A stretch of DNA of 64,000 nt, from assembly GCA_031763025.1 (NCBI GenBank), contig JASSKH010000010.1:992001-1056000 (forward strand). Reading direction: 5' to 3'. The notes under the pieces were generated by a model. The model made no database searches. It was given only the letters and a program-made list of their open reading frames with translations, and was not told the origin of the DNA. Made by a program: the position numbers and the translations under genes. Position 1 is the stretch's first letter. The number at the start of each line of letters is the position of its first letter. The stretch comes from Macrocystis pyrifera (taxonomy: Eukaryota; Sar; Phaeophyceae; Laminariales; Laminariaceae). Shown piece after piece: positions 14,966-62,700 of this stretch.

Positions 14966-16370
14966 CAACATGATCTGCCTGCAATTGCTACATATACCGT
15001 GTTGCAGGCAATTGTAACAAGGGTTTCGTTTTTATTGTGAGCGTAGAAGCCCGATTACCCGCCTCCCTCCCCTCTCCCCCCAAGATGCCGGAGTTGGAGG
15101 TCGAAAATCTAGACGCAAGTGCAGAGATTTATATTTTTAGTGATATGGTATTTTCCAGGACTGAGAGACAAGGGACCAACTGCTCGTACTATACTTGTAC
15201 GAGACCTAGCTGCTCTACTATTTCCGGTAGTAATTGTTTTTCGCAATCCGGCTCGGTATTGCGCGTGGGGCTCCGACACCAGCGTCAAGTTTTCGATCGT
15301 TTCCATGAAAGTTTTCGCGGAAAGAGGGAACGGAACCCAGTGTATGTAGCATTTTGACCAGAGAAGAAGCTGGCGTGCCACGGCGTGACGGCGTGTTGTC
15401 CGTCGATATTCGTTCTCACGTGTTGATAACTGACGACGCTCATCCCGACCAAATGTTATTGTCGGTGTGGAGGCATTTCGCGTCTTTTTACGTACGGGGT
15501 GGCTTCGTAATGTTAGCTGCAGTAGCTGTCGTCTTGTGGTGGTGGCGATTTCTGAAATGCATACGTACAGCAAACCAGTCGATGCGTCATTTCGGGTTTG
15601 ATGTTGCCCATTTCATTTGGAATGCAAACAAGGTACGGTGCAGGGTGATGTGCGGCTCGACTCTGTCGTGTACGTGTTGGAAGGTTTCTCTGACTCTGCT
15701 CGGTAGCTTTTTTTTTTCTCGGTCTCTTTCCGATAATCCCCCCCCGTGCCTGGAGCCCAGCGTGACAATCTCACCTGACTCTCGCGATATGTTGGCGGCC
15801 TCTTGTACGGAGAGTGAGGTTTAGCGTGATGATGTTGAGCGTTGGTTGGTATTGAAGAATAGAACCGTGATGGACACAAACTCAAAAGGGGGGGCCGGCA
15901 ACGCGATTTTTCAGTAGGTGTAATTAACGACCTTGAGAGGCCCGTTTCCTAAAACGCACAAGTATGTGAGGTCGCCGCCGACTGTGTTTTTGGCGTAACC
16001 AGCGCTATGCGTACGGCACTGTTGTTTTCCTTTTGCCGTCGTGTGTGGTTGAGCAGGCGGCTGTAGATATATCTTAAAATCGTGTGCCCGACTGCATCGT
16101 GCTATTCCTTGGTGAGTATGTGTACCCTGTTGGCAGAGGGAGTTGTAGCAGCAGCACATGCCAGAGGCAGGGTACCCCAACCAAAAGGTCAACGAAGCAG
16201 TTGGGGAAAATTACCCTCGGTCATTTTTAGTCTCAACGAAAGGGACAAAGGAACTCACCGGCCGCGTGTCGCTTTTTCGTTTTCTTTCCATGGCAAAATT
16301 AGAGGTTGACGGCGAAACCAATGGGCATTTGCAAGGGAACGGGGCGTGGGGAAGGGGGGGGGGGGCGTAC
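14966..16370. other. Intergenic stretch without a supported gene
   Basis: Open frames 15037-15357 and 15354-15824 (156 codons, one possible membrane segment GGFVMLAAVAVVLWWWRFL) have no recognisable family and no clear splice context. The direct repeat GCAGGCAATTG(C/T)TAC lies at 14978-15016. Confidence 0.45.
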
Positions 16371-16371
16371 T

Positions 16372-16889
16372 CATTTGTTGCTTGCCTTAGTCATTTGACC
16401 ATTGACCACGCATCCCTTTCGAGACGGAGCACCGTTCCTACTCCTAATAGAGACACCTCCAACAATTTGGCGCTCATTACGTTGTTTCCATAAATTACGT
16501 AGAAACTTTTTGCTAATCTTGTCCCCTTCCTGTTTGGCCTCCTGTGGCCACCATCTATCTCCTAGGATAGCGATCGTTTTCTCGCTGCTATTCATTGTAT
16601 CAAACTCCTCCATGTCACATTCGTCTATTTTCCTCATCTCCTCTTCTAACACATCCCGTTCCTCCTTGTATATTTCACATTCTCCTACTGTGTGAGTTCT
16701 ACTCTCTATTGTTTTGCCACACGGGCTCATATGTGCGTCTACTTCCTCCTCTTTCCGGCTACTGGTGTACCTCTTTCTTCTTTCCGGCAGGTCCAGGTGG
16801 GGAGGGGGGGGGGGGGGGGAATCCTTAGGCGGCTTTCTTGGTGATTTCCGGAGGAATTTCCCCATGACCTCCGATGACCCGTAAAGCAA
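16372..16889 (-). mobile_element. LINE 3' end with poly-C tail, best-preserved frame
   Basis: The minus-strand frame of 172 codons is open. It contains DLPERRKRYTSSRKEEE, the C-terminal motif SPCGKTIESRTHTVGECEIY (a Cys-Cys-His-Cys pattern as in many LINE ORF2 ends), TIAILGDRWWPQEAKQEGDK and WKQRNERQIVGGVSIRSRNG, ending NGQMTKASNK. The 3' end is ATGAGTACG plus poly-C (read on plus as the G-run at 16356-16367). Another G-run (16802-16819) lies inside the frame. Only the last 0.5 kb of the element is present; no reverse-transcriptase core is visible in the window. Confidence 0.75.
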
Positions 16890-18810: not shown

Positions 18811-19889
18811 GTTTCGAATAGCCGCATTTTCGACCACCTTTTTCTTGGCCGTTTGGGATGAACTTTGTCATCACCCTCCGACCATCTTGTGCTCTGCATA
18901 TACGACTATTCAGGGTGGGCTAATGTGATATGGATGGAGTATTCATGGGCTATAGATGTATAGTACAGATCCAACCCAGGACAACAGCGTGCTAGATCAT
19001 GCATAATAGTACACAGCTCCCACCCGGCAACGTTACGTAGCTTACAGATCGTTCAGATCAGGAATCTATCTTCTCTGAGAGGTCCTACGCATGGATGCGA
19101 GGAATGTTTAACCCTTTTAGAGCTGCAGTCTCGTTTCGGGGCACAAACCACTCAAATTCTAGGCAATTTTGTCTCCAAAACGGGACTGCCGTCCTAAACG
19201 TGTCGGGACCACAATTCAACCATTCTAGACGGCGGGTGAGGCAACGCATTTCTTACGCATATTTTTGGGGTCGTTAGACCTGGGCCCCAATAAAATTAAG
19301 AGGACATGAAGCCTATCATAGCAGGTGGATACAAAATATGCATTCCCCCCCCCGGGAGGATACAAGAATGTGACAGTTAAACCTGCGATCCTCCTTGACT
19401 CATCTAGGAGTGCAGTCCCGTTTTGGGGACAAACTACTTAGAATTAGAGTGGTTCGTCCCCCCAAAACGGGACTGACTGCAGTGTGCCGTAAAAACGGTC
19501 AACTCTCAGTGAAACCTGCGTTCCGCCTTAACCAACCCTCTGGGGGACTTCAGAAGGGAGAAAAAAAGACGATCAGAAGGGACGATTTCAGCAGCGGCAA
19601 CTGCGTCATCGGGGGGGTCGTGATACAAGTCATTGGAGTCCGAGTTACAATGGTTGAAAGGAGTCGTACGGCATGGGGGTAGCATGATCCTGCTCGTGCG
19701 CCCGGGCGCTCGCACTGTTCGCAGACGGTCGATAACATCAAAGGTACGACCAACCATTGGTTCGGCCGCTATCTCGGGCTCCTAAAGAGGTTAACCTGGG
19801 TCCCATTAGAGTTAAGAGGGCACGAAGCCTGTCAAAGGAGGGGATGAAAAATATGCCCCCCCCCCCCCCCCCCCCCCCTCCTTCTGGAA
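18811..19889. repeat. Intergenic stretch with small inverted-repeat elements
   Basis: At 19117-19200 and 19405-19488, CAGTCCCGTTTTGGGGACAA faces its complement about 80 bp on. The same family recurs at 51362-51437 and 51480-51546. 19600-19790 (GAGTTACAATGGTTGA, GGAGTCGTACGGCA) is a dispersed repeat also found at 37180-37370. A C-run lies at 19857-19878. Confidence 0.65.
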
Positions 19890-20138
19890 GTAGCCACACC
19901 AGAAATTAAATCAATCCATTGATGCTGTCATCCGTATGCTAGAGAAAATCCGGCTCTAAAGCGGTTCTTAGTAGGATGCAGCTCACCCTTCATGCGACTC
20001 ACCCAACACCCCACGGCGCTTCGCGCTTGGTGCAAACAATGTCTGCCTGGTCGGTGAAAACCCGACGTGCTCCGTCCTGGCATAGAAGGGATGCGAGGGT
20101 CTATGGTCATACGACTACGGCCATGCACGATAATGAGT

Positions 20139-20173
<35 letters not shown>

Positions 20174-20400
20174 TCTGCCTGGTCGGTGAAAACCCGACGC
20201 GCTCCGTCCCGGCATTCTAGGGATGCGAGGGTCTATGGTCATACGACTACGGCCATGCACGATAACGAGTACCCCCCCCCCCCCCCCCCCCCCATTGTCT
20301 GCCTGGTCGGTGAAAACCCGACGCGCTCCGTCCCGGCATTGTAGGGACGCGAGGGTCTATGGTCATACGACTACGGCCATGCATGATATGAGTACACCCC
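19890..20400 (+). mobile_element. SINE-like retroposon followed by two tandem 3' ends
   Basis: One copy truncated at its 5' end runs to a C-run at 20139-20169. Two further units (about 20170-20290 and 20293-20400) each start at TGTCTGCCTGGTCGG and end GAGTAC plus poly-C. A LINE 3' tail follows at 20404-20490. This is a tandem array of retroposon 3' ends separated by C-tracts. Confidence 0.75.
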
Positions 20401-20917
20401 CCCTCCCTGCTCCGTCTCGAAAGGGATGCGCAGTCAACGGTCAAATGACTAAGGCAAGCAACAAATGAGTACGCCCTCTCCCCTCCCCTCCCTCCCCCCT
20501 CCGAGAGGATACAAAATGTGGCAGGTTAACCTTGGTTCCTCCTCAAACTTCCTTCAGAGACAAGGTCTGACACTATTTTTATTTTTCACCGACCAAGGAA
20601 ATACCAATTATGACAAGGGCTTACGAAATCTGCGCCCCCCTCCCTCCCTCCCTCCCTCCCTCCCCGCACCCACCTCTACTACTACTCCCACGCCTCACGG
20701 CCCTGCTGTTTAAGAACAGACCGTCAGACGACACGGCACAAACACACAAACTGAAATGCCTGCGAAAACAAAAAAAAAAAACGTGTGAAGGCATGGAAAA
20801 AAAAAAATGATGTGAAGAAACACAAAATATGCAACAACAACAACAACAAACGCCGCGCGCAAACAACATCGAACAATGCAACACGACAACCATGGTTGAG
20901 TTCATGCACATTTAGCC

Positions 20918-22924: not shown

Positions 22925-23920
22925 CGGGCGAGGGAAGCTCGCACGGCACTATCGGGTGCTGTTGGTTGATCTCTAAAGGTATAGGCGCAGCTGGCACGGG
23001 AACGCGTGGCTGACTCCAGACGTGAAACGGAAGTCCTCTTATATTACATCCTCGCTGTCGAGTTGACTCGCCTCATACGCAGTATAGGGTTACACCTGAC
23101 GAGTGGCATTGGTGGGCACACATTACCCCGATATCCCAATACCCTACTGCCAGAATCCCTTTCCAGCATGGAACTCCCCAATCTACCATGGATCTTATAT
23201 GTCGTGTTTCTGAGTACAATCAACAGGTGCGATCGGCTCTCCAAGTGCCCGAGAAAAAAACACGAAACAAAAAAAAAGAACAGCATCGACAAAAACAGAA
23301 CCAACACCAGGACCATCAACACTATTACGGGGGACCATAGTTAATAGGACCAACGATACACACAAAAACCTACATATTTAACCAATTTTACTAATAAATA
23401 TTTTGTCCTATTTACTACGGTCCCCCGTAACAACAACCACACTTGGTAAAAACACCGCGACCACCAGCAACAACTCCAACACTAACCTAACACATGCAAC
23501 ACAGCAGCAACATCACGACCACCACTACCCGCTCCACTGGCAACATCTCGAAGGGCGACAACAACCAACATCAGCACCACCAGCAACATCACGACCACCA
23601 CCACACCAGCACCACCATCAACATCACGGAAAGCACCAACAACCAACATCGTCGCCCACCAAACCTACCACCACCGTCATCGCTATCATTACCACCACCA
23701 CAACAATACCACCACCCCCATCGTACCACCATCACGCCCCACCGCCACTACCCATTACCACTGCGCACTACCACCAAGGCTAAGGGCGCACCTAGGACCG
23801 CGGGGCCACCCGCCCTGACCTCTCCCAGCGTAGTCACACCCCCGTCATCAAGGCGGACCACCTGCCACAACCAAGGCACACCGCGGGTAGGGGTTTCCAA
23901 CCCAACAGAGACGAACATAC

Positions 23921-23970
<50 letters not shown>

Positions 23971-26554
23971 AGGGAAGGTCATCGACACTACGTCAACACA
24001 GGCAGACAGACATCGCAGATAGGTCCTCTGATGAGAAGGGACGGGGGGGGAGGGAAGGGGGGGGGGGGTAGCCAGGAAGCAACGTTTTCCTGGAAAAGTA
24101 AGATTGCCATACGACGTATACGAATATAGATTGCAAGAAAAATAGAAGCTAGTCACTGTTAGTCCAGCGCGCCCAGCGTTTAGCGGCGTCGGCGTACATA
24201 GCGGCGATCGAGCGGTGCGATCACTAGCGACAGCGCTACTACGTAGACATAGAGGGGGGCAAGAGGTGGTGGCGTCACCCCGTTCCCGCTGGAGAGAGAC
24301 ACGCGGAGCCAGAAAAGCTCCTGTCGACCACTTTCGGTGAGCGGAAAAACAAACAAAAAAAAAAACGTTCTGAGGGGAAAACAAATTGATGAGTATTGAG
24401 AAAAGCGATTTTTCACACCCGTTTCTCCCAAGGTCGATTTCCGCTCCCCCCCCCCCCCCCATATATTATATACCTGGTGTATATATATAGGTTGAGTTGG
24501 CGTCGGTTGGCGACGACACTGTAGAACACACCTCTCACTGCGTGAGCTAGACAGCCAGCGTACCGTTTTTTTTTTGTTTTTTTTTTTGGCGGTTGCACGG
24601 CTGGCGGTCAAGTTCGATCATTTTTGTGCAGGGAGAACCTTTACTCCGCACAAGGGGGATGATCGTATCACGTAGTGTGTATATGGTGAGGCACCCACGA
24701 GGCAGCTACATAGTAAACCCATTGCTGTCTCCGGAAGTGGCCACACCAGAAATTAAATCAATTCATTGATGCTGTCATCCATATGCAAGAAAATCCGCCT
24801 ATAAACAGGTTCTTATTTATAGTAGGATGCAGCTCACCCTTCATGCGACTCGCCCAACACCTCACGGTGCTTCTCGCTTCGTGCAAGCAATGTCTGCCTG
24901 GTTGGTGAAAACCCGACGTGCTCCGTCCCGGCACTGTAGGGATGCGAGGGTCTATGGTCATATGACTACGGCCATGCACGATAATGAGTACACTCCCCCC
25001 TCCACCGCCCACCCCAGGCAGTCCGTCCGCCTACCAACCTTTTTACGTATATAACACCCTGGACGGAAATATAAGGTACGTTTAGACACTACTATGAAGA
25101 CCAATCGGTCTCTACATTTTCGTCCTGAGTGGTACTACTCTGTGACTGCGATACCGCAAGAAAGAAAGCGACTTTTAATCCAGGCGAATTGTCCCCAAAA
25201 AAGTCGGTGCGGCGGCGTTCTTTCATTGACGGAAGGGAGGGGGGGCTGGGGGGTGAACCGCCGCAGATCAGGGTAAATTTCACACACGCTACGTAGTACT
25301 TGCCTCTGTCTGCTCTGCGGGTATGTCTTAGTCGCAGGTGTATCAAGGAGGGAGGGCGGCGAGGCGGGGGGCAGGGGGAGGGAGACAAGGGGCACCCCTG
25401 TACATGTATATATTTCACACACGCTTCTGCATTCCTTCTGCTCTGGTCGATGTTTAGTCGCAACTAAATCAAGGACGTGATCAGGGCCGGAAGGTGGGTG
25501 CGGGGGGGGGGGGTGCAATCGTTTGCTGTTTGTCTTCGTCACTTGACCATTGACCACACATCTCTTTCGAGACGGAGCACCGAGGGCCGGCGGGAGGGGG
25601 GGTGGGAAGGGAGGACAGCGCGGGCACCACCACTACTGCTGTACCACGTAGACGTACCTGGTTTGTACTTTACACACGCCTGTGCCCCTGCTCTGCTCTA
25701 TGGTGCGGAGCTATTTACTCGCAAGCGGATCAAGCAAGACGGATGGGCGATGCGGAAGGGGTACTCTCATCACAGTCGAACTTTTGCTTTACCCTGAGAG
25801 ACGGCATATCCCCACCGACGACCAGCGGCCCCTCCTCCTTCTCCGCTTCCGACGAGCCCGGGGCAGCGGCAGCTAAAGCGGCCGGGGTCTTGCGCACGAG
25901 CTTGCAAACGCCTCCTTCACAGTCCATAGTGCGCGCCGGCGCCGGAGATGAGGAGGGATCAGCTGCCGCCGCCACCGCCACGGTCGCCTCCGCCTCCGGA
26001 GTGCCGGTGGAGGGCGGTTGCTCCGGAGCCGGAGCCTTCTTTTTGCGCACGAGCTTGCACACGCCGCCCTCGCAGTCCATACCGCGCACCGGGGCAGCAG
26101 GTGGGGTGGGGCCGGATGCAGCCACCGCCGCCGCCGCCGCTTCTCTCACCGCCCCCTCCCCCACCTCCGGCGTACCCGATAGCGCTTGCTCCGGGGTCGA
26201 AACCACCTTCTTGCGCACGAGCGTGCACACACCGCCCTCGCAGTCCATACCGCGCGCCGGAATAGTAGCAGCAGGGACAGCGGAGGCGTTGGCGGCAGCG
26301 GGGTCATTCTCGTTGGGTTTGTCGTCGACGGGGGCTGTCTGGAGCAGGACGGCGTCGAGGGACTCGACCGACGGCAGAGGCAGGGCTTTGGCGTTCCCGT
26401 GGCGAAGCACGCGCCCGTCCTGATCAACGAGGCGGAGGTGAAGCGAAGTGGGGTGAAGCGCGGGCAGAGGCAGCAGAAGCAGCAGCGCAACGGATCATGA
26501 TGCATGTATAAGGACTATTGATGTAAACTTGGTACAGCGTAACGATCAAGGACG

Positions 26555-39416: not shown

Positions 39417-42400
39417 GAGGCGAAGGAGACAGCCCTTCGTGACATACCAGCACCAAGCGGGTTTAGGCGGTGTGTCATACCCGGCAAAACAGCTACCCGG
39501 TCTATCGTGTACGACGATGGCGTACTATTCGAGCAAGATTGCTCGGAGCCAGACCCCAAGGAGCAGCCTCTCCGCGGCCTACGCGGAGATGGTGGTGCTG
39601 TTCCTAAACGGAAACCAGGACTATATTCCCATCGAAGTGCCCGCCCTGTCACCTGAGCAGGCGCTTCAGGCCATACCTCGGAGGCTTACTAACCCATCGG
39701 CAGAGGTGGTGGCCCTTTCTGCGGGCGAGGAGAAGGGACGAGGATGTCTTCGACGAGTACGAAGGAGAAAGCTCAAGCTTGACGTAGACACCATGGGGAT
39801 AAATGGGGGGCAGCGGTGGATCTTCTGCGTTTTGTTTTCGTTAATGGACTTCATCTGTTTTGTCTGTGTGATTTTTCGGCAATGTAGGTGGTTTTTTGTT
39901 CCTTCCTCTCTGTCTCTTCTTTTGCACCTTGTGGTAGGCTCCAGCCACGGAAGTCGTGTATAAGGAACGGTATGTACGGGATTCAGATTATACTGTAATT
40001 AATTATAGCCTTGTTAATGAGTGGCGGGTGGGTGGATTGGCGGATTGGTTTTTCGCTGGCGTTGCAGCGCACCACTATTAATAGCAGTAGCCATAATAAT
40101 CCTGATCATTTTATTTTGATATAAGAGTCAAATGCAAGTACGTTAATATATGCTAATAATTACATCAATATCTGATCATCTTAATCTTGACTGCTGTCGC
40201 TCGTACCGTCGTTGAAATTAAATATGCATAGTAAGCTGAAGCATAGTGAGCTGTACAACCCATATTATCCCTATACATACGTACTTGTCCTGGAGGGTGG
40301 GCTTTTCTACCTACTTATCTTACACGCATGTGTGGCCGAGAAAGAGCTACAATGAGCTGTGTGCATGAGCTATGATGACGTTCTCCTGGGGTGAGCTATA
40401 GGCGATAGCTCAGCTGCCCATGTTTTCCCTGCTTGAGCTATAGGCGGTAGCTCATCTGCACGTGTTATGAAGGCTTGAGCTATAGGCGGTAGCTCATCTG
40501 CACATGTTTTGAAGGCTTGAGCTATAGACGGTAGCTCATCTGCACATGTTTTGAAGGCTTGAGCTATAGACAGTAGCTCATCTGCACATGTTTGGAAGGC
40601 TTGAGCTATAGGCGGTAGCTCATTTGCACATGTTTTGAAGGCTTGAGCTATAGAAGATAGCTCATCTACACATATTTTCCAAGGCTGAGCTATAGGAGCT
40701 ACATGAGCTAGCTCATCTGCCCCCGAGATGAGCTATAGGAGCTACCTGAGCTACACATGTTTCCCTCCGCTTGAGCTATAGGCGGTAGCTCATCTGCACA
40801 TGTTTTCGAATGTTGAGCTACACGCGATAGCTCATCTACACACATTTACCCAGGCTGAGCTATAGGAGCTGCATGAGCTAGCTCACCAGCCCCCAAGATG
40901 AGCTATAGGAGCTACATGAGCTACACATGTTTCCCCCGGCTTGAGCTATAGGCGGTAGCTCATCTGCACATGTTTTCGAAGCTTGAGCTATACACGGCAG
41001 ATGAGCTAGCTCATGAGCTGTCCGGGGTGTGGAAGGTTTCGGCTCCTCAACTGAGGGACTACCCCACACCGTTTTTTTTTTCCAATCGTTTTCGGTGTGT
41101 GCCTTTCGACGAGAAGTCGACGTGGGAAGAAATGGCTGGAGTCTTCCTTTCATGAAAATGAAGATACAAACCTTACATAGTGAGGAGGGGATAGGAGAAC
41201 CTGCGATGTAACCCCGGATCTTAGTTGCGACTATGGTTGGAGGGAGACAGAAAAGACAGGACGAAGTTATATAAATGGGAATGAGGAGAAAACAAAAACG
41301 AAAAACCAGACCATGAGATCGACCGTGGTCGAGTTCGTCCGTTTTTTTTCTCAAAATTAGTTTTTCGGAAAAGTAGGGAGCTCTTCGAGTTAGGAGCCTC
41401 AGGAAAAAAATAGGTGCATCTCTATGACCGTAAGTTGCATGCGTCGGGTTATAACTATATAACCGAATCACCCGGCCGATTAACCGTCCGGTTACATGAC
41501 CGATTAACTGACCGACTGCCGGACCGATTTTCTGACCGATCGATTTACGAAAGGCGTACGAAGAGCGCGGCATGCAGCGGAGAAAGTCTAAGCAGTTCGA
41601 CGGCACGGATGTCGCGGGCGAGGTACCTGGCGGCGGGGGCGGGGCTCGCGGGCTTCTCCGCCGTGAGGTGTCGCGCGCTTTCTCGGCGGTGGCGGCGGCT
41701 GGGGGCGCCGTAGCCGCGGCGAAGGTGGATGCGGTGTCCTTGCTCCTGAGGCTCATGGAAGAGCAGGTAAGGTGGTGGGGGTGGGTGGGGTGGTGGCGTT
41801 GACAGCTGATGGGGGTGGTAGTGGTGGTGGCGGTGGTATTGGGTTGTGTCTGTTGTTGGTCTTGGTGGTGGTGGTGGTGGTGATGTTGGTTGTTGGTGCT
41901 CTTCTTGATGTTGCTGGTGGTGTTGGTGGTGTTGGAAGTTCTGTTGTTGGTGCTGGTGTTGGTTTTGGTGCTGGTCTTGTGGGTGGAAGCTTAGGGTCGA
42001 ATATGGTTTGTAGCTGTGACTAGACCCGCTTTTTTTTGTTGGTCACGACGTTTGACGAAGCGCGAAGGTGGATTGGACTAACGTTTTTTTTTCTCTCGCC
42101 GATGGAATGGACGGGCCAACCCTTCGTCGATCGCAAGGGTTCACCGATACTGCGCACAATCCCCGCTGCCGGTTACACAGCTAGGCTAAGCCATCTGTGA
42201 GAAGAGGCTTTTTTTCCGTTTCCACCCTGTGGATTACACACACACACACGACGCCATAAGCCTTACCGCCGGAGGCGCATCACCAGTAGCCCAATACAGA
42301 GAGCGAAAATATGGCGAATATATTGCATTTGTTCTTCTCCCTCATTCGAAACCCTCTCGGGTTTTTTTTGGACAGAACCTTTTTTACGGACAGCCAACAT

Positions 42401-45400
42401 ATGCCTCTGACGAACAATATATAGCCAACCCTTCATGGCTCTTCCCGTCGTTGGTAGACCACAATCCCGTGTAGATCACACGACCCCCCCCCCCCCCCCC
42501 CCCCCCGTTGAGACTCCCAATGACCCCTCCCGTCAAGCGTTTCGGGTTGTTTGAGGGGAAAATGTGAGAGTCGCAAGTGGACTGAGATCGAAAGGTCAAG
42601 AAGTCAGACATACATGCAATGAAAGCCTTCCTGTTTTAGAAACCCCAATAAGATGGCTATCGATATACCGTCACGATATGGTCGTCGATCGCTTGGGGCT
42701 GTTTTTTCTGGGGTAGTGTGAAGTTACGCCTGGACTGGGATCCCTGTCGCAGCAGTTGCAGCAGCACTCGCCATCCCCTTGTCCTGGCCTCTGCCGCCCT
42801 TTGCTCCCTCTGAAATCCCGCTCAATGGAACACGGATTGGTGTAATTTTTATGTTTTTCAATTGAACAAGGGTGTGTTGTGTTTTTCCTACTGAGCACTG
42901 GAGGGTGGCTGTCTGTGTTTTTCAATGAACACTGGTGCCGGTCGGTGTTTTCAATTGAACACAGGTAGATATCTGTGTTTTTCCGAATGAACACTGAATG
43001 GTGTGTGTGTTTTTTCAATTGAACACTAGTGTCCGTCTGTGTTCTTCAATTGGATACTTGAGGGCGTAGAGGGCGTCTGTCTTGCTTTTTTTCGAAGTAA
43101 CACGGTTTGTCTGTCTGTCTGTCTGTCTGTCTGCCTGTCTGTCTCTCTGTCTTTGTCTGTCTGTCTGTGCTTTCCGTGTTTTGTCTCTTCAGGTACGGCA
43201 AGGGATGTCTGTGGACGTCTTTCCGATGGCCAGCACTTGCCGCGACGGGAACGGGATGGCGCGCTGGGGACAGGTGCGTTCGTCGCTAACCATACCAGAT
43301 ATCTAAAATATGAAAACTGTTTCACATGATATATATGTTTGACATGGTATATACAACATCAGTACCACAGCGCGCACAGGGGTTGCTCTACACGCGGGTC
43401 CCGGTGACACCTCTTCGAGTTTGCCTGATCCACCCCGCTTCCCAGCGGTTCCAATCAATAATCACGGAGTGGGGCCGTCTGTGACTCGATACGGGGTTTA
43501 TCGGATGGGCCAGGCGCGGGTCGGGGCTCCGCACGGACTCGCTCCCCGCCGCCCCGCCTGTGAAAAAGTTGATAAGCTGGTACTCGTAGTGCGTGCAATT
43601 CCCAATCCATCGTAGACTAACGCTTGTACTGTAATCGTAGTGCTGCTGCTGTGGGTAGTGTGTGCAGGAGTAGTATTATATTCCGTCACTATCATGTGAG
43701 TCTATACCCCTCCATCCTGCTTTTTATTCGAGTGTTGAATGGTCAAATATCAAGATCTACAGATGTGCAGTATGTCGCACTGCGTGCTGCTGCTCGGTCG
43801 TCTCCGTGTACAGCAGGCAGTGTGTTGCCATCCAGTCAGAGATCACGCCGAGCGGTGTAGCGTGTGTCGCCTCGGTACGTTCGTATGTCTCTGGCGTTTC
43901 AGTTCGGATGATCATCGTGGAATCATAGATCATGGACGGATTCGGACTGTCAAGGGCCATGAACCACGACGATCGATTTGCTCCACATCAGACAGACGAA
44001 CGACCGACTGACCCACTCCGCTTCCTGGTGATTCCATTCAATCGATAATCCACGGACACGCACACGGGGTTTGCCAGCTAGACGGGGCGCGGATCGGGGC
44101 TGCGCCCCGATGCGCTCCCCGCCGCCTCGCCTGTCGGGTGTTGCAGCTATGCCTGATATTCAACATTGTTTAGCGTGTTGTACGTGTGGTTCAACGTATC
44201 GGTATGGACAGTAGTAAGGCCCTAGGTCCCGCACGAAACAGCTTAGACCCGCTCTCCCGCCGCCTCGCCTGGGAAGTGTTGTAGCTATATGCCTCTTACG
44301 GGGGGTCCATAGTAAATAGGACCAAATACTAGTATTTGTAGTAAAAATAGGGAAATATATAGGTTTTTGTGTGCACCATAGGTCCTATCAACTATGGTCC
44401 CCCGTAATAGTGCTGTTTTTTTTATTCCTTTTTCGGCTTGTACGTGTGGTTTCTTAGGCACCACGTACCGGTATGAAAAATAGCACACTGTACGTAGGCC
44501 CGAGATCCTACGAGTAGGTCCCGCACGGAACAACTTAGGATTGACGCGACCAACAGCTCGAGCCTTACAAAATAACGCAGATGAGGTTTCGATTCGGTGA
44601 GTGATTGGGGACAAAATCGTAAAATGCGCCGGTTGACCGTACCAGGGATGAATTATTTTCATCAGATCAATTATCGAATTGATGGTCGATTGGCGACAGG
44701 TCCATATTTCAAATGAAGTTGGATGAAAGGAGTTTTATAGGGAGGGGATTGCAAAAACTCGAGCGAATTAGACGTTAGAGTGGCGCTAAAAAGCTGGGGA
44801 TTCTGGGATTTAATTTATTTTAACTATATACGTCACTGGGACTGTCAGCTTTTTTTTTCGGCGTTTGTTTTGGTCCGCTGTTCTTTCTTGCAGGGCGCGT
44901 GCATGCGTGGTTCACGAAACATAACAAGAAAAAGTGTGGAAAACAGAAAATAAATATTGATTCCTGGTACGTACAGTAGTTCGATTTACCAGGTATATTT
45001 TTATTTTCGTGCTTCCACATAGTAAGAAAAGGTGCGCCGACTCAACCCAACTATTGCGGGGGACCGTAGTAAATAGGAACAAATATTGTTGGTAAAAATA
45101 GGTAAATGTAGAGGTTTTTGTGTGTACCGTAGGTCCTATTTACTATGGCCCCCCGTAACACAACCTTAACCCTGACCGTACCCCTAGCCTGACGAAAGCC
45201 CTAACCTTGAAAACCTAACCCTGACCCAACCCGCTCTAAGGGTGTATGGTCCGAGCACAGCTTGGCTTCGCCGCGCGTTTTCCGTTCCCTGACCAAAGCT
45301 GTTTTAGACCACCTCAATCAACGATCGTTTTATGTTCCACTGCTTTCTCTGGTGTTGAACGTTGAGTGGGTCGATTGAAAACACGGTACAGGCTTGTACA

Positions 45401-45977: not shown

Positions 45978-48900
45978 ACCCCGTGCCCGTACCCTCCCTC
46001 CCCCCATGGCCGCGTTTTTCGTGTCACTTTTTTCGTTTTTTTTTTGTGGTTGCACCAGGAGGGTCCGGAGGCCATCGCGGCCGTGGAAACCTCGCTGGAG
46101 GCGTCTCTGGTGTGTCTCATGATCGCCACGTGTCCGGGATTGGACCGCAGGCTGTGCTCGGACGAACTCATCGACTCTTGCCTCGGCCTGTTCAAGTGGG
46201 TTGAATGGGATGGAGATGGGGATGGGAAGAGATGGGGTGGGATGGGATGGGGGATGGGATGGGATGGGGGGGTGGGATGGGATGGGATTGGGTGGGATCG
46301 AATCGGATGGGATGGGATTGGATGGGATGGGATGGGATGGGATGGAATCTGATCGAATCGGATGGGATGGGATGAGATGGGATGGGATGGGATGGGATGG
46401 GATGGAATGGGATGGGAATGGGATGGGTTGAGATGGAATGGGGGGTGGGATGAGATGGGATGGGATGGGATGGGGTGGGATGGGATAGGATGGGGTGGGA
46501 TAGGATGGGGTGGGGTGGGATGGTTTGGGATAGGATATAGGGTAGAATAGGTGTTACTGATGTTATTGGTGCCACGAGGTGTTGATGTTGATGAGTTGGT
46601 ATTGTCGGTGTTGTTATTAATAGTTATATGGGTGATATTGATGACTTTTTTCGTAGTCGTGATAGCGATATTGGTGGTGGTGTCTGGTGTTTCTCCGCCC
46701 CCCGACCCCCGCTCGTCCCGGCGTTTTAGAGGTGCAAGGGTCTACGGTGATACAGCTACGGCCATGCATAACAATGAGAACCCCCCCGGCGGGCGGGGGT
46801 ATACTCATGTCACTACGGCTATGCACCGCGTTGAGTACACCCCCCCACGCCCCTGTCCCGTCCCGCATCGTCGAGATACCGAGCTCCGATTATACCTCAG
46901 CTCCGTCCTTCCAGCGCTCTCCGTTGAGGCCAAGCCTTTCAGGTTGACTGATGCCCCTCCCTTCCTTCCATCCTGAAACGCGTTTTCCGCTGGATCGGAA
47001 TGCCGAGCTCTGATTATACCTTATAATGCCCCCCCCTCGCTCTCAGTGGCAGCCTGATGAACCGCTCTCCCCTTTCTCAAAACGCCTGTTTTAATGATAG
47101 TTGTGTTTTTACGGTGATTCATGTGGCAGGCATGGATCCCCCCCCCCCCCCCCCCCCCCCACACCCCCCCGGTTCTCAACGCCGCCTGTCACCATGGTTG
47201 TGTTTCATGATGGTCGCTGTGGCGGTCATAAATGACCCCTCTCCCCCCCTTCTCAAACGCCTCCTGTCACGATGATTGTTGTGGCATGCGTCAATGCCCC
47301 CCCCCCCCCCCCCCCCCCCCCTCATTCGACGCTGTCATCCACATGCAAACAAATCCGCCTCACAAGCGGTTCTTAGTAGGGATGCAGCTCACCCTTCATG
47401 CGACTCGCCGAACGCCTCGCGTTTCGCTTCGCCCTTGGTGCAAGCAATGCCTTCCCGGTTGGTGAAGACCCGACGTTCCCTGTCCCAGCATTGGATGCAA
47501 GGGTTCTCATGGTCGTACGGCTGTGGTCATGCATAACATGAGTACCCTCCGTCTCGAAAAGGATGCATAGTCAATGGTCAAATGACAAAACAAGCAACAG
47601 CTGAGTACCCCCCCCCCCCCCCCCCCCCCCCCGGCTTGGTGCAAGCAATGTCTGCCTGGTCGGTGAAAACCCGACATCCTCCGTCCCGGCATTGTAGGGA
47701 TGCGAGGGTCTATGGTCATACGACTACGGCCATGCATGAGATCGAGTACATCTCTCCTATCGAGTACACCCCCCCCCCCCCCCCCGCCCGCCCCTCTTCA
47801 AACTCTTATTTTTGCCATGGTTGTGTTTTTCACGATGGTTGTTGTGGCACGCATCAGTGAACCCCCCCCCCCCCCCTCCCCCCCTCCTCACACGCCTATT
47901 TTTGTCATGGTTGTGTTTTCACGATGGTTGTTCATGGCAGGCATCATCTCGCGAGGCACATTGCCCCGGCGCTTGACCCTACCCTAGCCAACTCCATCGC
48001 GACGGGAGGTGGGTTTGCCAATGACGTTAGCAAGGAGATACAGCCCTACGTATGATGGACGTTGCGTTTTTTTTTTCTTGTCTCGGACGAGGGGGAAGGG
48101 GGAGGGGGGGCGGGCGAAAGGGGAGGGGGGGCGGGCAAGGAGGGGCGAGGCAGCGTGTCGCCGAACTCGCTGCTACTGCCGTAATGCTGTCGGCGACGAG
48201 TCCCGTTTGAGGTTTGGTTTGTGGATGTGTGTTTGGTTTGTGGATGTGTGTGAATGTGTGTGTTTTTTTTCGCTGCGTGTGGAATGTTGGATGTGTTGGT
48301 TGGATGCCGGTCTCTGCGTGCGCACGAGAACACCAAGACGGAGAAGAGCGCAAGGGTGTGCAGGTACGGAATCGCGCCTCCCCTCCCGCATGCAATGCAT
48401 GGCAATGCACGCAAGCGGCTCAATCAATCGGCCAACCAATCAACAAAGCAGAACCAGTTGAGTGCTCAAGCAATTGGGGTATCATACCGCACAAAACCAA
48501 GCCATGGAACCATCGAGCGATCAAACAATCAATCAAACCGTGAGGCGGTGAATCCATCGAACAATCAGATCGCCAATCAAGAAAACCGTACGTATTTTTG
48601 AAGGTTTGTGTTGATTTACGTCGTTTGGTGCCCGTTTGGCAAAGCAATAGAGAGCAGAATTCACATACGTAGTATTACGGAGGTCCATAGTAAATAGGAC
48701 TTACGGTACACACAAAAACCTTTATATTCACGTAATTTTACTTACGATATTTGGTCCTATCTACTATGGTCCTCCGTAGTAGGAGAATGTGAAATGTACA
48801 AGGAGGAACCCGATGTGTCAGAAGAGACGAGGGAAATAGACGAATGTGACACGGAGGAATTTGATACACTGGATAGCAGCGAGAAAACGATCGCTATCCT

Positions 48901-50467
48901 GGGAGATAGATGGTGGCCACAGGCGGCCTAACAGGAACGGGATAAGATTAGCAAAAAGTTTCTATGTGATACATGGAAACAACGTAATGGGCGCCCCAAT
49001 GTCGGAGGGGTCTCTATTAGGAAAAGGAACGGTGCTCTGTCCCGAAAGGGCTGCGTGTTCAATGGTCAAATGACTAAGGCGAGCAACAAATGAGTACGCC
49101 CCCCCCCCCCCCCCCCCCCCCCCAAAACATGCCGCGTGTCACCTCGCAGACCCTTCCAAGCCGGCGGGGTCGAAGGCTAAGACTAAGGGCAAGGAACTTG
49201 AGCCCCAGCAAAGGGGGGGCGAGGGTGGTGTTAGTGGTGGCGTTGGCACGGGGGGGAAGGGGGACGGCAAGAGTGGTGGAGGAAAGAAAGGAGGTGGTGG
49301 TGGCGGCGACGCCCGCTTGGAGGCGCGGCTGAAAGAAATTTCCAAGAAAATTATTTCTGGCGGAACTCTCGGAAAGGCGTACGAGGTGTTGGGACTTCTG
49401 GACTGCCTCGTTTCTAGGGTGGGTGTGTTGGTATTTGTTTCAGAGGTGGGGTTTCGGGAGGGGAGGAAGGGGCGGGGCGGGGGGTGGGATTGACGAGGAT
49501 GGTGCTTTTTTTATACCTAGCACATTTAATTTCGGCTATGAATGGCGTGTGGGTGCGTGTATTGTACGTACCTGGTAGTGTTTCTGTCTTGGCTGCAGAT
49601 TTGTATCGTTTTTGCCCTTTCTTTTTTTCTGTTTTTTTTTTTTTTTTGTACTCTCGTCTTTGTGTTCCTAGCTCATCGTCTTGCATGCGTTTTTTTTTGT
49701 CTGTTCACACTCTGCGACTTTCTAGACAAAACCGTTGTCACAAGTGTCTTCCTTCCCCCCCCCCCCCCCCCCCGCTCGCTACACGCCATGTATTTTTTTT
49801 CGCGTGAAAGCCGTTCGTTTTCTATCACTGCAACCACGGGTCGGGACGTAAAAAGTACAGCAGTAGGGAGCTCGCTCCGAAACCCTTCCGCTTCCGTATA
49901 ACAAATCTCACACTAATTCCAAGTAGCTTTTCCCCAAAAGCGTGGGTGCAGTGCTAAAGAGGTCAAGGGCCCCGAGTGCGTTCGGTATTGAAGGTCCATT
50001 TTATACGAACGGGCTACGTATAGCTACAGCGGTCGCCTTTCGTGGCAATACCCGGTTACTCGGTGGGTATCGAATTCGTTGCTTTCAAACCTGTTACAAA
50101 TTCGTAGAACAACTGTTACGGGGGCCATAGTAAATAGGACCAAATATTGTTAGTAAAAATATGGAAATATATGGGTGTTTGTGTGCACCGTAGGTCCTAT
50201 TAACTGTGGACCCCCGTAATGTAATATGACGGGGGTCCATAGTTAATAGGACCTACGGTATACATAAAAAACTATATATTTACTTATTTTTATCCAACAA
50301 TATTTGGTCCTACTTTTACTATGGTCCCCCGTAATGTTAGTAGTCTAAAAAACAAACCCAAGACACCCCGTAGTATGTATAGAGCGCGCGATCGAATTTT
50401 GACACCGAAAATGGCAAGGATGAGTTTTGAGTACATTTTCAATTTTCGATGTCACAGCAGCAGCTTG

Positions 50468-50498
<31 letters not shown>

Positions 50499-53400
50499 GT
50501 TCATTGTTTTTCTTCCTGTACACAGGGGGTCCCCTTGTACAAGGTGTGTATTGTACGAACGAGTTAGTACATGGCCCCTGTGGGCTAGCCACATACCGCT
50601 CTGTCCGTAAATGAAAGCAAAGCACTTTTTGTATACTATTTATAACAATACTTTGTTCAATCAAAAACGGTCCTTATGTTTGGTGATAAGAGCCTGTCCC
50701 TAGTTATAAGGGCCTTTTGTATGCTAATATTCAATCAATACGTCCCTTGTATTTTGGGACAGAACTGTCTCTAGATCTAAACGCAAGGAATTTTGGTATA
50801 CTACTATTTAATCTATACGACCCTTATGTTTAGTCAATACGGCGCTTGTATTTAGGTGACAGAGTGATAGTCAGTAGCGGACCGAAATGGTGCGCATGCA
50901 TTTGCGGTCGCTTGTTTACTATTACGGGGGACCACAGTAAATAGGACCTGCGGTACGCACAAAAACCTACATATTTTCCTATTTTTACCGACACCAATTG
51001 GTCCTATTTACTATGGTCCCCCGTAATACCGGGTACAGTACCAGGTTAGTTCCCTCATCGTGGTGCGCATAAATTAGAAAGGCCCCTCATTTACTATTTT
51101 CCTCATCGATGAGGCCCTGAAAGGGGGGGGGGGGCACCCACGGTGCTTGAAAATAGACTGCTGCAGTAGACTCGTACGTACAGCCATTAGTGAAAAATCG
51201 CCCTAACGCTTGCAGCGTGTAGCGTCAACCCACCTATTACGGGGGTCCATAGTAAATAACACCTACCTACGGTACACACAAAAAACCTAAATAATATTTC
51301 CCTGTTTTTACTAACAAAATTTGGTCCCATTTACTATGGTCCCCCGTAAGTAGGGCAAAACTGTAGTCAGTCCCGATTTTTGGGACAAAGTACTTGGTGT
51401 AAGTTGAGTGGTAGTGTACGTCCTCGAAACGGGACTGCAGGTTTTGGCCCTGTGACAGGGTAAATAAACCCCTTTAGAATCGCAGTCCCGTTTTGGGACT
51501 AATTACTTGAAATTTGACTGGTTTTGTCCCCAAACAAGGACTGCAGTATATATACTATTACGGGGGGGTCCATAGTTAATAGGACCTATGGAATACATAA
51601 AAACCTATATATTTACCTATTTTTACTAACAATATTTGGTCCTGTTAACTATGGTCCCCCGTAATAAAAGGGTCAAGGATTGTCGTTGCTTTTCTTAGAA
51701 ATTGGTTCTCCTGAGACAGACTCGCTACGTACATATACCAAAACGGTAAACTTTGCTTTGTTGGAAACGTTTCTTATCTGTTGCGACGATTTTTTTTCGA
51801 GCAGGTGAGGCTGCAGGACAACGTGCTGCTGCAGCTGTGCAACGCGTGCAAGTCCTGCCTCCTGTTGGAGGCGTCGTCAGACAAACGGGGGGAGGGGACG
51901 TCCAGGCTCCAGCCCCTGCATCACGGGGCACTGGGGGTTTTCCAGACGGTCTCGCGCAGGTGGGGTTTTGTTTATGGCGGAGGGGAAATGGGGGCGGGGG
52001 AGGAAGGAGTGGGGAGGTGGAGGGGGGGGGGAGGGGGGGGCAGGGGGAATTATGTTGTGGTGAGTGTAAATCGGTCTTTTGTCTTGTTTGCTTTGTGGTT
52101 GTTGTTTTTTGCGTGTATATGAAGTGTAAAGTGATTGGATAGTGTTTTTGGTGTTGTCTATTGCACCCCCCCCCCCCCCCCCCCTCCCCTCCACCGCCTA
52201 TCCTCCGCTCACGGATACGATTGCCGAGGAAAATCCTTCCCCCCTTCTAATTCGACGCTACCATCCATCCACGTGCAAGATAAGTCCGCCCCGCGAGCGG
52301 TTCTTAGTAGGATGCAGCTCGCCCTTCGTGCGACTCACCGAACATCCCACGGCGCTCCTCGCCTGGTGCAAACAACGCCTGCCTGGTCGGTGAAAGCCCG
52401 ACGTTCTCCGCCTCAGCATTGGAGGAGGCGAGAGCCCATGGTCATACGGCTACGCCCATGTATGACATGATCACGCCCCCTCCCTCCTCCCGCCTTCCAG
52501 GTACGCGAGTTTTCGCACCCTGATGATCGAAGACCTGTTCGGCATGCTGCTTAAGATGCCGACGGGGCGTAGGCAGCTCAGGACCTTCCGCCTCCGCCAC
52601 GTCCCCGAGGGCATCGGAGGATCCAACGGTAAGAGGGAGAGCCAATGGTCCAAAGAGGGATACAACGGTAAAACGGGGATCCAACGGTAAGAGAGGGTTC
52701 CAACGGCCAAAAGGATACTGTATCATACTGCTGTAGTGTACGTGGCACTCACAGCGACCGTCAGAGGAAACGTATGTATCACCCGTATGATGCCATGGTG
52801 GCGCCGCTTTTATTTCGTCGGGGACTCCAGGAAGTTTTTTTGGACGGTGCGATCGGTGTATGTATGCAAACGGGGCCGCACCAACCAACCAATCAGCCCC
52901 TCCCCCCCCCCCCCCTCGCGCGCTCCTACGTATGTCACCCCCCACCTAAACCAACTCCCTGACCCCAACCCCAACCCCCCCCCCCCCAATCACCTCCCCC
53001 ACCCCGCCCTCCCCCGCCCTCACCGACGCCCTCCCACTCCCCTATCCCCGCCTCCTCTCGCGTAGCCTCACCCTCATCCTCACCCCCACCCCCACCCCCA
53101 CCCCCATCCCCCCACCCTTTCCTGCACCCACCCACGAGGCAGTTACACATGTAGACAAACCCATTGTTATCTCTGGAAGTGGCCACACCAGAGATTAAAT
53201 CAGATCATGGATGCTGTCATCCATGTGCATGAACATGCGCCTCTAAAGCGGTTCTTAGTAGGATGCAGCTCACCCTTCGTGCGACACGCCCCAACACCTC
53301 ACGGCGCTTCTTCGCGCTCGGTGCAAGAAATGTCTGTCCGGTCGGTGAAAACCCGACGTGCTCCGTCCCGGCACTGTAGGGATGCGAGGGTCTATGGTCA

Positions 53401-53905
53401 TACGACTACGGCCATGCATGATAATCAGTACCCCTCTCCTATCGAGTACACCCCCCCTTTCGTGTAGGGGACCTGGACCTGCCAGAAAGACGAAAGAGGT
53501 ACACCAGTAGCCGGGAGAGGGAGGAGGTAGATGCACAGACGTGCCCGTGTGGCAAAGCAATAGAGAGTAGAACTCATATAGTAGGAGGACGTGAAATATA
53601 CGAGGAGGAACGGGATGTGTTAGAGGAGATGAGGAAAATAGACGAATGTGACATGAAGAAGGATTTTGATCCAATGAATAGCAGCGAGAAAACGATCGCT
53701 ATCCTAGAAGGTAGATGATGGCCACAGGAGGCCAAACAGGAAGGAGATAAGATTAGCAAAAAAATGCTCTATGTAATATATGGAAACAACGTAATGAGCG
53801 CCCAATTGTTGGAGATGTCTCTATTAGGAGTAGGAACGGTGCTCCGTCTGGAAAGGGATGCGTGGTCAATGGTCAAATGACGAAGGCAAGCAACAAATGA
53901 GTACG

Positions 53906-59738: not shown

Positions 59739-62700
59739 TTTTATCTAACCCTTCGTCTCGGCATTGCACGCATGATAATGAGCACCCCCCCCCCCCCCCC
59801 CCCGGCTATTATATATGTATTACTATATGGTTGGCAACGACGCTGTAAAACATGCCGCTCACTACGTGAGCTAGCTAGACATCCAGGGTACCGTTTTTTT
59901 TTTTTTTTTTTTTTTTTTTTTGGCGGTCGCCCACAGCTGGTCGTCTAGTTAGATCATTTGTGCGAAGTAAATAACCTTTACTCTACACAAGGGAATTGAT
60001 CGTATCACGTAGTGTTGAAGGTACGGCACCCAAGAGGCAGTTACATAGTACTCCCATTGCTGACTCTGGAAGTGGCCACACGCCACTGGAAATTAAACTA
60101 ACTCATTGAAGCTGTCATCCATATGTAAGTCCGCCTCACAAGCGGTTCTTAGTAGGATGCAGCTCACCCTTCATGCGACTCGCCGGACATCTCACGGCGC
60201 TTCGCGCTTGGTGCAAGCAATGTCTGCCTGGTCGGTGAAAACCCGACATGCTCCGTCCGGCATTGTAGGGATGCGAGGGTCTATGGTCATACGACTACGG
60301 CCATGCATGAGATCGAGTACATATCTTCTATCGAGCACACCCCCCCCCCCCCCCCCCCCCCCGCCTCGACCGCCCCGTGCTTTATCAAACCCTTCGTCTC
60401 GGCATCGCACGCATGATAATGAGCACCCCCCCCCCCCCCCCCCCCCCCTCAACAAAAAGTTCCTGTTCAACATATGGAAACAACGTAATGAGCGCCCAAT
60501 TGTTGGAGATGTCTCTCCGTTAAGAGTTGGAACGGTGCTCCGTCTGGAAAGGAATGCGTTGTCAATGGGCGAATGACCCAAGGCAAGCAACCAATGAGTA
60601 CCCCCCCGCGCCCTCCCTCCCTCCCTCCCTCCCTCCCTCCCTCTCATTCCTTATCTACCCGCCTCATGCGACCACGGCCGTGACTGACATGAGTACCCCC
60701 CCCCCCCCCCCCCCCCCCCCAACACCACCACCACCCCACGCCTCATTTCCCCCCTTGGCCGACCTGAAGGGTGAGGATATTCGCTACCTTCGCGGTGGTA
60801 GTGGCGGCGGCGGCGACGGGTCGGAGAGCGGAGAGGAAGATAGGTTGATGCTCGACTGCGACCGGTGTCACCGGTGGTTTCACGGCCCCTCTGTGGGTGT
60901 TGCGAAGCAAGAGGTGTGTCGGTGGGCGTGGTGGTTGTGTGGGTGTGGACTTCCCGCGTTCCTACGACTAACACCGTATTGGGCGTACGATACCATACCG
61001 CCCTTACCTTGGGTATGATACCACCGGAAACCACCCCCGGTGATGAAAAAGCAACGAATTGAACGAAACAACAAAAAGGCCATGTTTTTATCACCGGGGT
61101 ACGTTACTGTAGATGCCACCCCACCCCCCCCCCCCCGCACCTGGACCGATATGCCTTCCAATCAATCAGTACGAAAAAAAATATCACCTCGGGGGGCCGG
61201 TGCCAGTACACTCGGCTTTTTTTTTTGCGTATGCTTGTTGATACGGTACGAGTTCTTCAACATGGGCGAGTCGTAATAGTCTGTCGGAATGCCATACGGG
61301 TAGATAGGTGCGCAGGATTTTTATCGTACCGGGTACGACTCTGTCCCTTAATGTAAAGGGCGTTTGTGTACCAATATTCAATCCATATCTTCCTTATATT
61401 GAGGGACATAGTGGTATGTATAGGCGAGCTGCCTTCGAGGGTAAGAAGTTGCCAATTTTCGGGGCTCGCGTTATCACCCCCCTTTGTTATCGCCTCTGCC
61501 GGTACCACCCCCCGGCGATAAATGAAACAAAACTCGGATAAATAATGGTATTCTTTCACCACCGGTGTACACTGCGAGGGATACTATTACGGAGGGCCAT
61601 AGTAAATAGGACCAAGTATTGCTAGAAAGAAACGGGTAAATATATCGGTTTTTGTGTGTACCGTAGGTCCTATTAACTATCGTCCCCCGTAAAACGCGAC
61701 CAGGGGAAACCACCCCTGGGTGGTAGATGAGGCAAAAACGAGAAATAGTTATCACCCGGAGTGGTTTTTGTTGCGTCAAGTGTGTAGTTCTGTGTTCCGG
61801 ATCGGTTTGATTTGATTGGTCCAGCGAGTTGGTTGACCCAGAGAGGTGGTGATTGATCCAGCGAGTCGATCGGTCCAGCGATTCGATTTGTTTTGGTGGA
61901 CCGGTTTGATTGGTGGAGCGATTCGATTTGTTTTGGTGGACCGGTTTGATTGGTCGGACGACTCGGTTGGTCCAGCAATTTCGGGGGGGAGAGCGAGAGA
62001 GTGAGATAGAAGTGAGGGGTTGGAGATAGAGCGAGGGCTGGAGGTAGACAGACAGACAGACAGACCCATTCAGACATGAATAGACAGAGACAGAGACAGG
62101 TAGAGGGCCAGGAGAACACGGTCGCGTTCGGTCCCGCGATTTTTCACTGGTCCTACGGTTTGATCGGTCGGGCGAGTTGATTGGTCCAGCGATTGCTTCG
62201 CGACCGGTGGCAGGGGTGATCGTGGTGTTGTAGTATGTGGTGCGGAACTTCCACCTTCGCCCCCGATCGATTCGATTGGTGGAACATGGTGGAGCGATTT
62301 TTGATTGGTTGGCCGATTTTTGATTGGTCGAACGAATATGGTTGGTCCTGCAGTCTGGTTGGACCTGACGGTGGAACATGGTGGAGCGATTTTTTAATTG
62401 GTTGGCCGATTTTTGATTGGTCGAACGAATATGGTTGATCCTGGAGTCTGGTTGGACTTGACGATTTCTTCGCCGGCGATGGCATCGGTGGCGCCCATCT
62501 AGTTTGTTTTGCTCGTTTGGCTGGTTGGTTGATTGGTTGATTGATTGATTGGTTGGTTCAGGGGTAGATAAAAAAAAAAGAAAACGGAGTCAGAGTCGGC
62601 ACCATCTTGGAATTGATGTTAGCGGATTGGGATTTTTTGTCAGAATTTTTACTGTACGTAGATGAAACATATAGTTTTTCAGTTTTGTTGTACTTGATTT

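Follow-up and report, generated by a model that had tools for sequence, protein, structure and literature searches.

Oligo-C tracts as probable insertion targets of a LINE and its short non-autonomous partner in the kelp Macrocystis pyrifera

An APE-type LINE of Macrocystis pyrifera and its non-autonomous partner probably insert, in one orientation and often nested, mostly into oligo-C tracts that were already present in the genome, with priming on the G strand. Our analyses covered a window of 64,000 nucleotides (the whole stretch of DNA under study) and the 223-contig, 537,376,219-base assembly in which all genome-wide matches were counted, an assembly described in the consulted part of its report as 537 Mb in 35 scaffolds and 188 contigs (PMC10498591).

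Element copies and controls

Copies were collected by their 3' ends. The 151 matches were reduced to 75 by removing duplicates and matches lying within 35 nt of a locus start, and to 72 by removing 3 near-duplicates by hand; setting aside 9 near full-length copies left 63 truncated copies (33 of the LINE and 30 of the short element) for a truncation test, with one LINE copy present twice among the 63 (L041 and L054, at the same place, the latter with a false 5' end and scored as a miss). A 5' junction was scored as positive when a run of at least 5 C (or G) lay in the 25 nt preceding the element, and the background was taken from random 25-mers of the window, 5.1% of which hold such a C-run. 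A second sample (C125) comprised 14 copies on one chromosome contig, all counts being read by eye and the 5' junction being readable in 10.

Other repeats served as controls. A dispersed repeat of ~110 bp, present as 22 rows that represent 13 copies (9 of them on both strands), had a C- or G-run at 3 of its 5' flanks and 2 of its 3' flanks. Three small control repeats had such runs 5' and 3', respectively, in 0 and 1 of 3 rows, 0 and 0 of 2, and 0 and 4 of 9, the last of these being low-complexity DNA. The ~110-bp repeat matches itself on both strands and is MITE-like (23317-23430, 30588-30693, 44301-44415 and 50918-51026, among others), and some of its copies adjoin CCCCCGTAAT.

Two families with one 3' end

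Self-comparison of the window yielded two families, a LINE and an abundant non-autonomous element of ~0.5 kb, both of which end in (T/C)GAGTAC, sometimes with one more base, before a C-rich tract begins. Genome-wide, the pattern ATGAGTACNCCCC has 16,324 matches versus 82 for the reversed pattern, and the LINE 19-mer GCAAGCAACAAATGAGTAC has 4,632 exact matches versus 0 for its control. The first-pass annotation, made from the sequence of the window, had proposed that the two elements are alike over their final ~75 nt, and this was borne out: the pair aligned locally with a score of 53, whereas the best of 1,000 shuffles reached 21 (one copy of each element compared). The short element has its 3' end in common with its partner LINE, a known strategy of SINEs. 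A head of Pol III type (tRNA, 5S or 7SL) was not recognized, and it is hence referred to here as a short, or SINE-like, element. The idea of a tRNA-derived head found no support, as no tRNA was found in the window and Rfam gave nothing above threshold there, its one match to an element copy being at chance level (E 2.3). A run of 28 T that begins ~90 nt into the short element (window positions 59894-59921) should act as a terminator for Pol III, so that transcription by this polymerase in the ordinary way is doubtful.

C-rich DNA lies 3' of all 14 copies in the C125 sample and of 29 of the 30 loci that carry the LINE 19-mer (the exception is L068), the redundancy of the small contigs reducing these 30 loci, in our judgment, to only ~14 distinct insertions. 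The earlier claim that the elements end and are then followed by C therefore stands for both families. A uniform poly-C does not, since the tract is in many cases short or interrupted (e.g., GCCCGCCCCACCCC and GCCTCCCCCCCC). In the same way, the (T/C)GAGTAC terminus assigned to the SINE could be retained, but in many short-family copies the last bases are GAGTACA, or the terminal motif is duplicated, in place of ATGAGTACG. One of the five LINE 3' ends that had been listed is correct (16372, minus strand), but the other four (20404, 48781, 53461 and 60455) lie close to where truncated fragments begin on their 5' side; the true 3' ends of these fragments are at 20473, 49098, 53905 and 60601.

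At the level of RNA, the common 3' end is predicted to fold into two hairpins plus a GUGCUC/GAGUAC pairing, paired in 94.9% of cells, with covariation no better than that of shuffles; a fold common to both 3' ends is offered as a suggestion only.

The features of the window are collected in Table 1; between 59800 and 60720, four successive element ends occur, each followed by C.

Table 1. LINE and short-element copies and adjoining C-runs in the window
Position	Strand	Feature	5' side	3' side
16366..16798	-	LINE fragment, truncated	GGATT-C16-TCCCC	C12-TTCCCCACG
19883..20396	+	Short element and two tandem 124-bp 3' units, C30 and C22 between
20408..20473	+	LINE fragment within C tract 3' of short element
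24461..24992	+	Short element, near full-length	C15 run (24446-24460), directly adjoining
25519..25582	-	LINE fragment, diverged	CCGGCCCT	CCGGCCCT
47321..47545	+	Short element, truncated	C25 run (47297-47321), directly adjoining
47547..47608	+	LINE fragment, end CTGAGTAC	CC from short-element end	C25 run from 47608
48777..49098	+	LINE fragment (counter-example)	C-run absent	C25
53129..53450	+	Short element, truncated, inside C-rich DNA
53457..53905	+	LINE fragment, truncated	C6	C36
55243..55519	+	Short element, truncated	C-rich tract	C-rich tract, C36
59393..59631	+	LINE fragment, diverged	C-run absent	C-rich
59785..59803	+	C19 run at 5' edge of the short element at 59804	ATGAGCAC end
59804..60339	+	Short element, near full-length, end GAGTACATATCTTCTATCGAGCACA	C-run	C-run
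60340..60362	+	C23 run	Short element ending at 60339
60426..60448	+	C23 run	Small fragment ending ATGAGCAC	LINE fragment
60453..60601	+	LINE fragment, 5'-truncated, end ATGAGTAC	C-run and TCAA	C6, then C-rich DNA
60696..60720	+	C25 run	ATGAGTAC end of short-element fragment 60659-60695 (fragment by eye)

Other repeats were seen among these features. At 47100-47946, a further short repeat, CTCAAACGCC...CCATGGTTGTGTTTTCACGATGG...GCATCAATG, alternates with C-runs and may be another family that makes use of these sites. A 42-bp unit with TGAGCTATAGGCGGTAGCTCATCTG forms long arrays at 38072-38522 and 40392-40992.

C tracts at the 5' junctions of truncated copies

The first-pass annotation had treated the C-run as a feature of 3' ends and overlooked the C-runs at the 5' side. 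These adjoin the 5' ends of truncated copies at many differing truncation points: at least 5 C precede 48 of the 63 truncated copies, against a G-run in 1 of 63 (binomial P ~5e-49 for the 5.1% background). The C125 sample agrees, 9 of its 10 readable 5' junctions having a run of at least 5 C within the 25 nt before the element and 8 of them one of at least 7, with L088 as the single miss. For the whole genome, homopolymers of eight were sought that have the LINE 21-mer X (GGTCAAATGACTAAGGCAAGC) 1-31 nt further on. X had C8 just upstream at 404 sites, G8 at 1 and T8 at 0, and the corresponding counts for the short element were 923 sites with C8 and 2 with G8, the C8 counts not being independent because some contigs are redundant and many of the listed short-element sites are repeats of one another. 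By eye, the single G8 site before X is the same tail in inverted orientation, and among the C8-X sites listed (100 of the 404) there are many differing truncation points. Insertion into a simple repeat with a fixed orientation, by which microsatellite-targeting LINEs are recognized, was thus found here.

A 5' run of at least 5 C is absent from 15 of the 63 truncated copies. By eye, L054 and L072 at least do not show a genuine 5' end, and five lie next to the end of another element with little C between; old age, deletions or a loose preference could each explain the lack of a 5' C-run in the 15. The element is often broken at its 5' junction where its own sequence contains C, e.g., with the C-run joined to GTCTCGAA or TCCGTCTCG, which suggests 5' joining by microhomology with the C-run.

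Coding content of the LINE

The LINE is a non-LTR retrotransposon with an APE endonuclease and a reverse transcriptase. Both regions are present, with stops and frameshifts, in the near full-length copy L039, the endonuclease with the motifs WNVCG..GDFN. Pfam matched the endonuclease to Exo_endo_phos (APE type; E = 1.1e-10, in a single broken copy with a stop read as X) and the reverse transcriptase to RVT_1 (E = 9.8e-15), pieces of the latter also matching LINE-1 ORF2p and R2 chains in the PDB. In the C-terminal region, a CxC...H...C motif was seen by eye and no Pfam match was found.

The LINE frame ends in ...GAPSRKGCVVNGQMTKASNK (...TKASNK*), its TGA stop codon falling within the terminal ATGAGTAC. 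A frame of 354 codons in L041 stops at the same TGA, and the last 40 codons are stop-free in 18 of 27 distinct LINE 3' ends, some of which are frameshifted or start in the flank. With its stop codon in the terminal motif, the LINE is without a 3'UTR, so that the ~75 nt held in common with the short element are LINE coding sequence. An extremely short 3'UTR of simple repeat is a trait of RTE and RTE-X elements, and the LINE is probably of this kind. Its 5' truncation is frequent, as the endonuclease region was found at 262 sites (20-mer, at most 1 mismatch) versus 4,632 for the exact 3' end (19-mer).

The loci with the best RVT_1 matches (L009-L038) look like a second LINE family, with open frames of up to 1,299 amino acids and many equal scores. 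An ATGAG(T/C)AC-Cn end was found in none of these 30 loci, in which the stretches may stop before the 3' end of the element.

Target or tail

The C-run is read here mainly as a target because C-runs stand 5' of truncated copies, because C-runs occur free of copies and because the runs are equally long on the two sides. The window holds 58 C-runs of at least 10, and 42 of these adjoin no detected LINE or short-element copy, with at least 2 of the 42 (24446 and 60696) adjoining, by eye, copies that the test had missed. Median run length is 12 on the 5' side and 10 on the 3' side (n = 49; Wilcoxon P = 0.52), with no 3' excess.

Duplications were examined at the flanks. At locus L062, a C-run plus GTCTTTCCT is repeated on both flanks of a LINE, and a C-run plus TCCGTC on both flanks of a short element. 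The flanks of the minus-strand LINE fragment at 16366..16798 form a near-matching duplication that takes in the C-run (at 16798, a C-run plus TCCCC on both flanks, the 3' copy with one extra T). Exact duplications beyond the run were found in 4 of the 72 copies, which is not above chance (shuffled pairings gave a mean of 1.8 and a maximum of 6). In both L062 pairs, the C tract on the 3' side exceeds the 5' target copy in length, which suggests some addition of C or a later expansion. As to C-runs at empty sites, which the first-pass annotation had named as evidence that would refute its tail, the outcome is indirect: the upstream target copy bears the C-run, and a single search at one locus, L062, found no true empty site.

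Its further suggestion, that the LINE enzyme primes on or adds C-rich tails, holds in part: the data are best read as priming on a G-run, but the C-run is mostly a pre-existing target (48 of 63 junctions; 404 sites against 1). An explanation by nothing more than the addition of a uniform poly-C tail was rejected in view of the 5' C-runs, the free C-runs and the equal run lengths. It is possible that extra C comes from slippage or from an RNA tail on top of a tract that is mainly a pre-existing target.

Proposed mechanism and alternatives

Under the reading that we favor, the LINE protein would bind the common 3' end of either RNA and nick the G strand within a C:G tract. As C is nearly always on the sense strand of the element, the nicked strand would offer a G-run as primer; once freed, this G-run would prime reverse transcription while paired with C at or near the 3' end of the RNA, C that may have been transcribed from the tract at the source locus or may be no more than the final C of GAGUAC. 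The cut in the top strand would fall 0-10 nt past the tract, so that the duplicated target would be mostly C, and the resulting copies would usually be 5' truncated. Because the C tract survives insertion, it could be hit again, which would give rise to element-Cn-element arrays such as those at 47297-47785 and 59785-60720.

Three other accounts of the C-runs were weighed. The main rival to site choice by the endonuclease is endonuclease-independent insertion, in which C:G tracts, as possible G-quadruplex sites, break frequently and the reverse transcriptase primes on the exposed 3' ends of G-runs. Such breakage would account for the strand bias, for the presence of C both 5' and 3' of the copies and for the weakness of the target duplications, and the lack of T8 sites does not weigh against it, as T tracts would not be expected to pair with the RNA end there either. 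We nevertheless consider it unlikely, since the LINE has kept a recognizable APE endonuclease (at the Pfam E value given above) and some of the junction duplications resemble staggered cuts. Less likely again is that the C-run is a retrotransposon tail, made from a C-tailed RNA template or by slippage of the reverse transcriptase, with a choice of target that is not specific for C. In favor of a tail are the 3' ends with at least 5 C in their first 25 nt (57 of the 63 copies), the extra 3' C in both of the clean L062 duplications and the copies that have C at the 3' but not at the 5' side, such as those at 48777 and L088. A tail does not, however, sit well with the C-runs 5' of truncated copies, the C8 to G8 ratio of 404 to 1, the equal run lengths or the many C-runs that have no detected copy. 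A mixture of C-tract targeting with a little slippage is possible.

The arrays could also have formed by tandem duplication between C-runs or by jumping between RNA templates, in which case the 5' C-run of one copy would be the tail of another. At 20037-20407, tandem 124-bp units of the 3' end of the short element, with C-runs between, include two that start at the same element position, and this array is apparently a tandem duplication rather than a set of separate insertions. When the tract at the 48 C-run junctions was traced further upstream than the 25 nt of the junction test, an element-end motif was found before it in 19, for each of which nesting, template jumping or tandem duplication could be the explanation. 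The remaining 29 junctions have no such motif before the tract (very diverged ends could escape this check), and this, together with the variety of truncation points among the 100 C8-X sites listed, makes duplication or template jumping the least probable of the accounts, and a very improbable one, for the C-runs as a whole.

Insertion into pre-existing C tracts would have further implications. It helps to account for the arrays of repeats and C tracts in the kelp genome, it would make the C target a clean test of primer-template pairing versus endonuclease in the choice of site, and it serves as a warning that SINE "tails" can be landing sites. Target-specific LINEs also bear on work on RNA-templated gene insertion. 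We give somewhat less than an even chance to the full combination, i.e., an APE LINE outside Tx1 and R1 with C-tract specificity, C:G priming, a 3' recognition element that is coding, a parasite that copies it, and nested arrays that feed themselves.

Comparison with known systems

LINE-1 primes poly-A RNA at T-rich sites, and human LINE-1 and Alu show an RNA tail complementary to the target, which would help priming, together with frequent 5' truncation and nesting in tails. The kelp model would be the C:G counterpart of LINE-1, with C:G pairing in place of the A:T pairing of LINE-1 and Alu. Waldo, Kibi and Dong are further examples of microsatellite-specific non-LTR retrotransposons. LINE-1 differs in needing no common 3' end beyond poly-A, according to the part of the source consulted (PMC3747384).

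Microsatellite-targeting LINEs are thus already known, as are RTE elements with a very short 3'UTR that seed simple repeats (PMC2887409). Togen, in (TG)n, and some HERO families resemble the kelp LINE in lying in a simple repeat in fixed orientation (PMC4640811). The target-specific families described in the consulted part of that source are RLE elements or APE elements of the Tx1 and R1 clades (PMC4640811), whereas the kelp element is an APE LINE of another architecture found at mononucleotide C; with a homopolymer of C as target, the site would be of a different kind. In the literature on LINE and SINE tails and targets, as far as the consulted portions extend, no C-homopolymer target or tail was found described, the two poly-C matches concerning overhangs for the LINE-1 endonuclease (PMC12809410) and the end of a DNA transposon (PMC9942856).

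Lepidopteran RTE elements that generate microsatellites are alike in their frame of APE and reverse transcriptase, their extremely short 3'UTR of simple repeat and their many 3' fragments at simple repeats (PMC2887409). There, the repeat was explained by slippage during retrotransposition (PMC2887409), whereas in the kelp the repeat is also at the 5' junction and resembles a target. Another brown alga, Ectocarpus, has autonomous RTE-X LINEs (RTEX-1 and RTEX-2_Ec32) and a non-autonomous partner that matches them at the 3' end, RTEX-N1_Ec32, which is ~600 bp long, very abundant and has a 5' head of unknown origin (PMC12477816). The account of these elements differs in that its consulted sections do not mention C tracts, a target preference or a missing 3'UTR, and the terms homopolymer, C-rich and insertion preference are absent from its main text (PMC12477816). 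Likened by its description in those sections, RTEX-N1_Ec32 is the closest known match in kind to the kelp short element.
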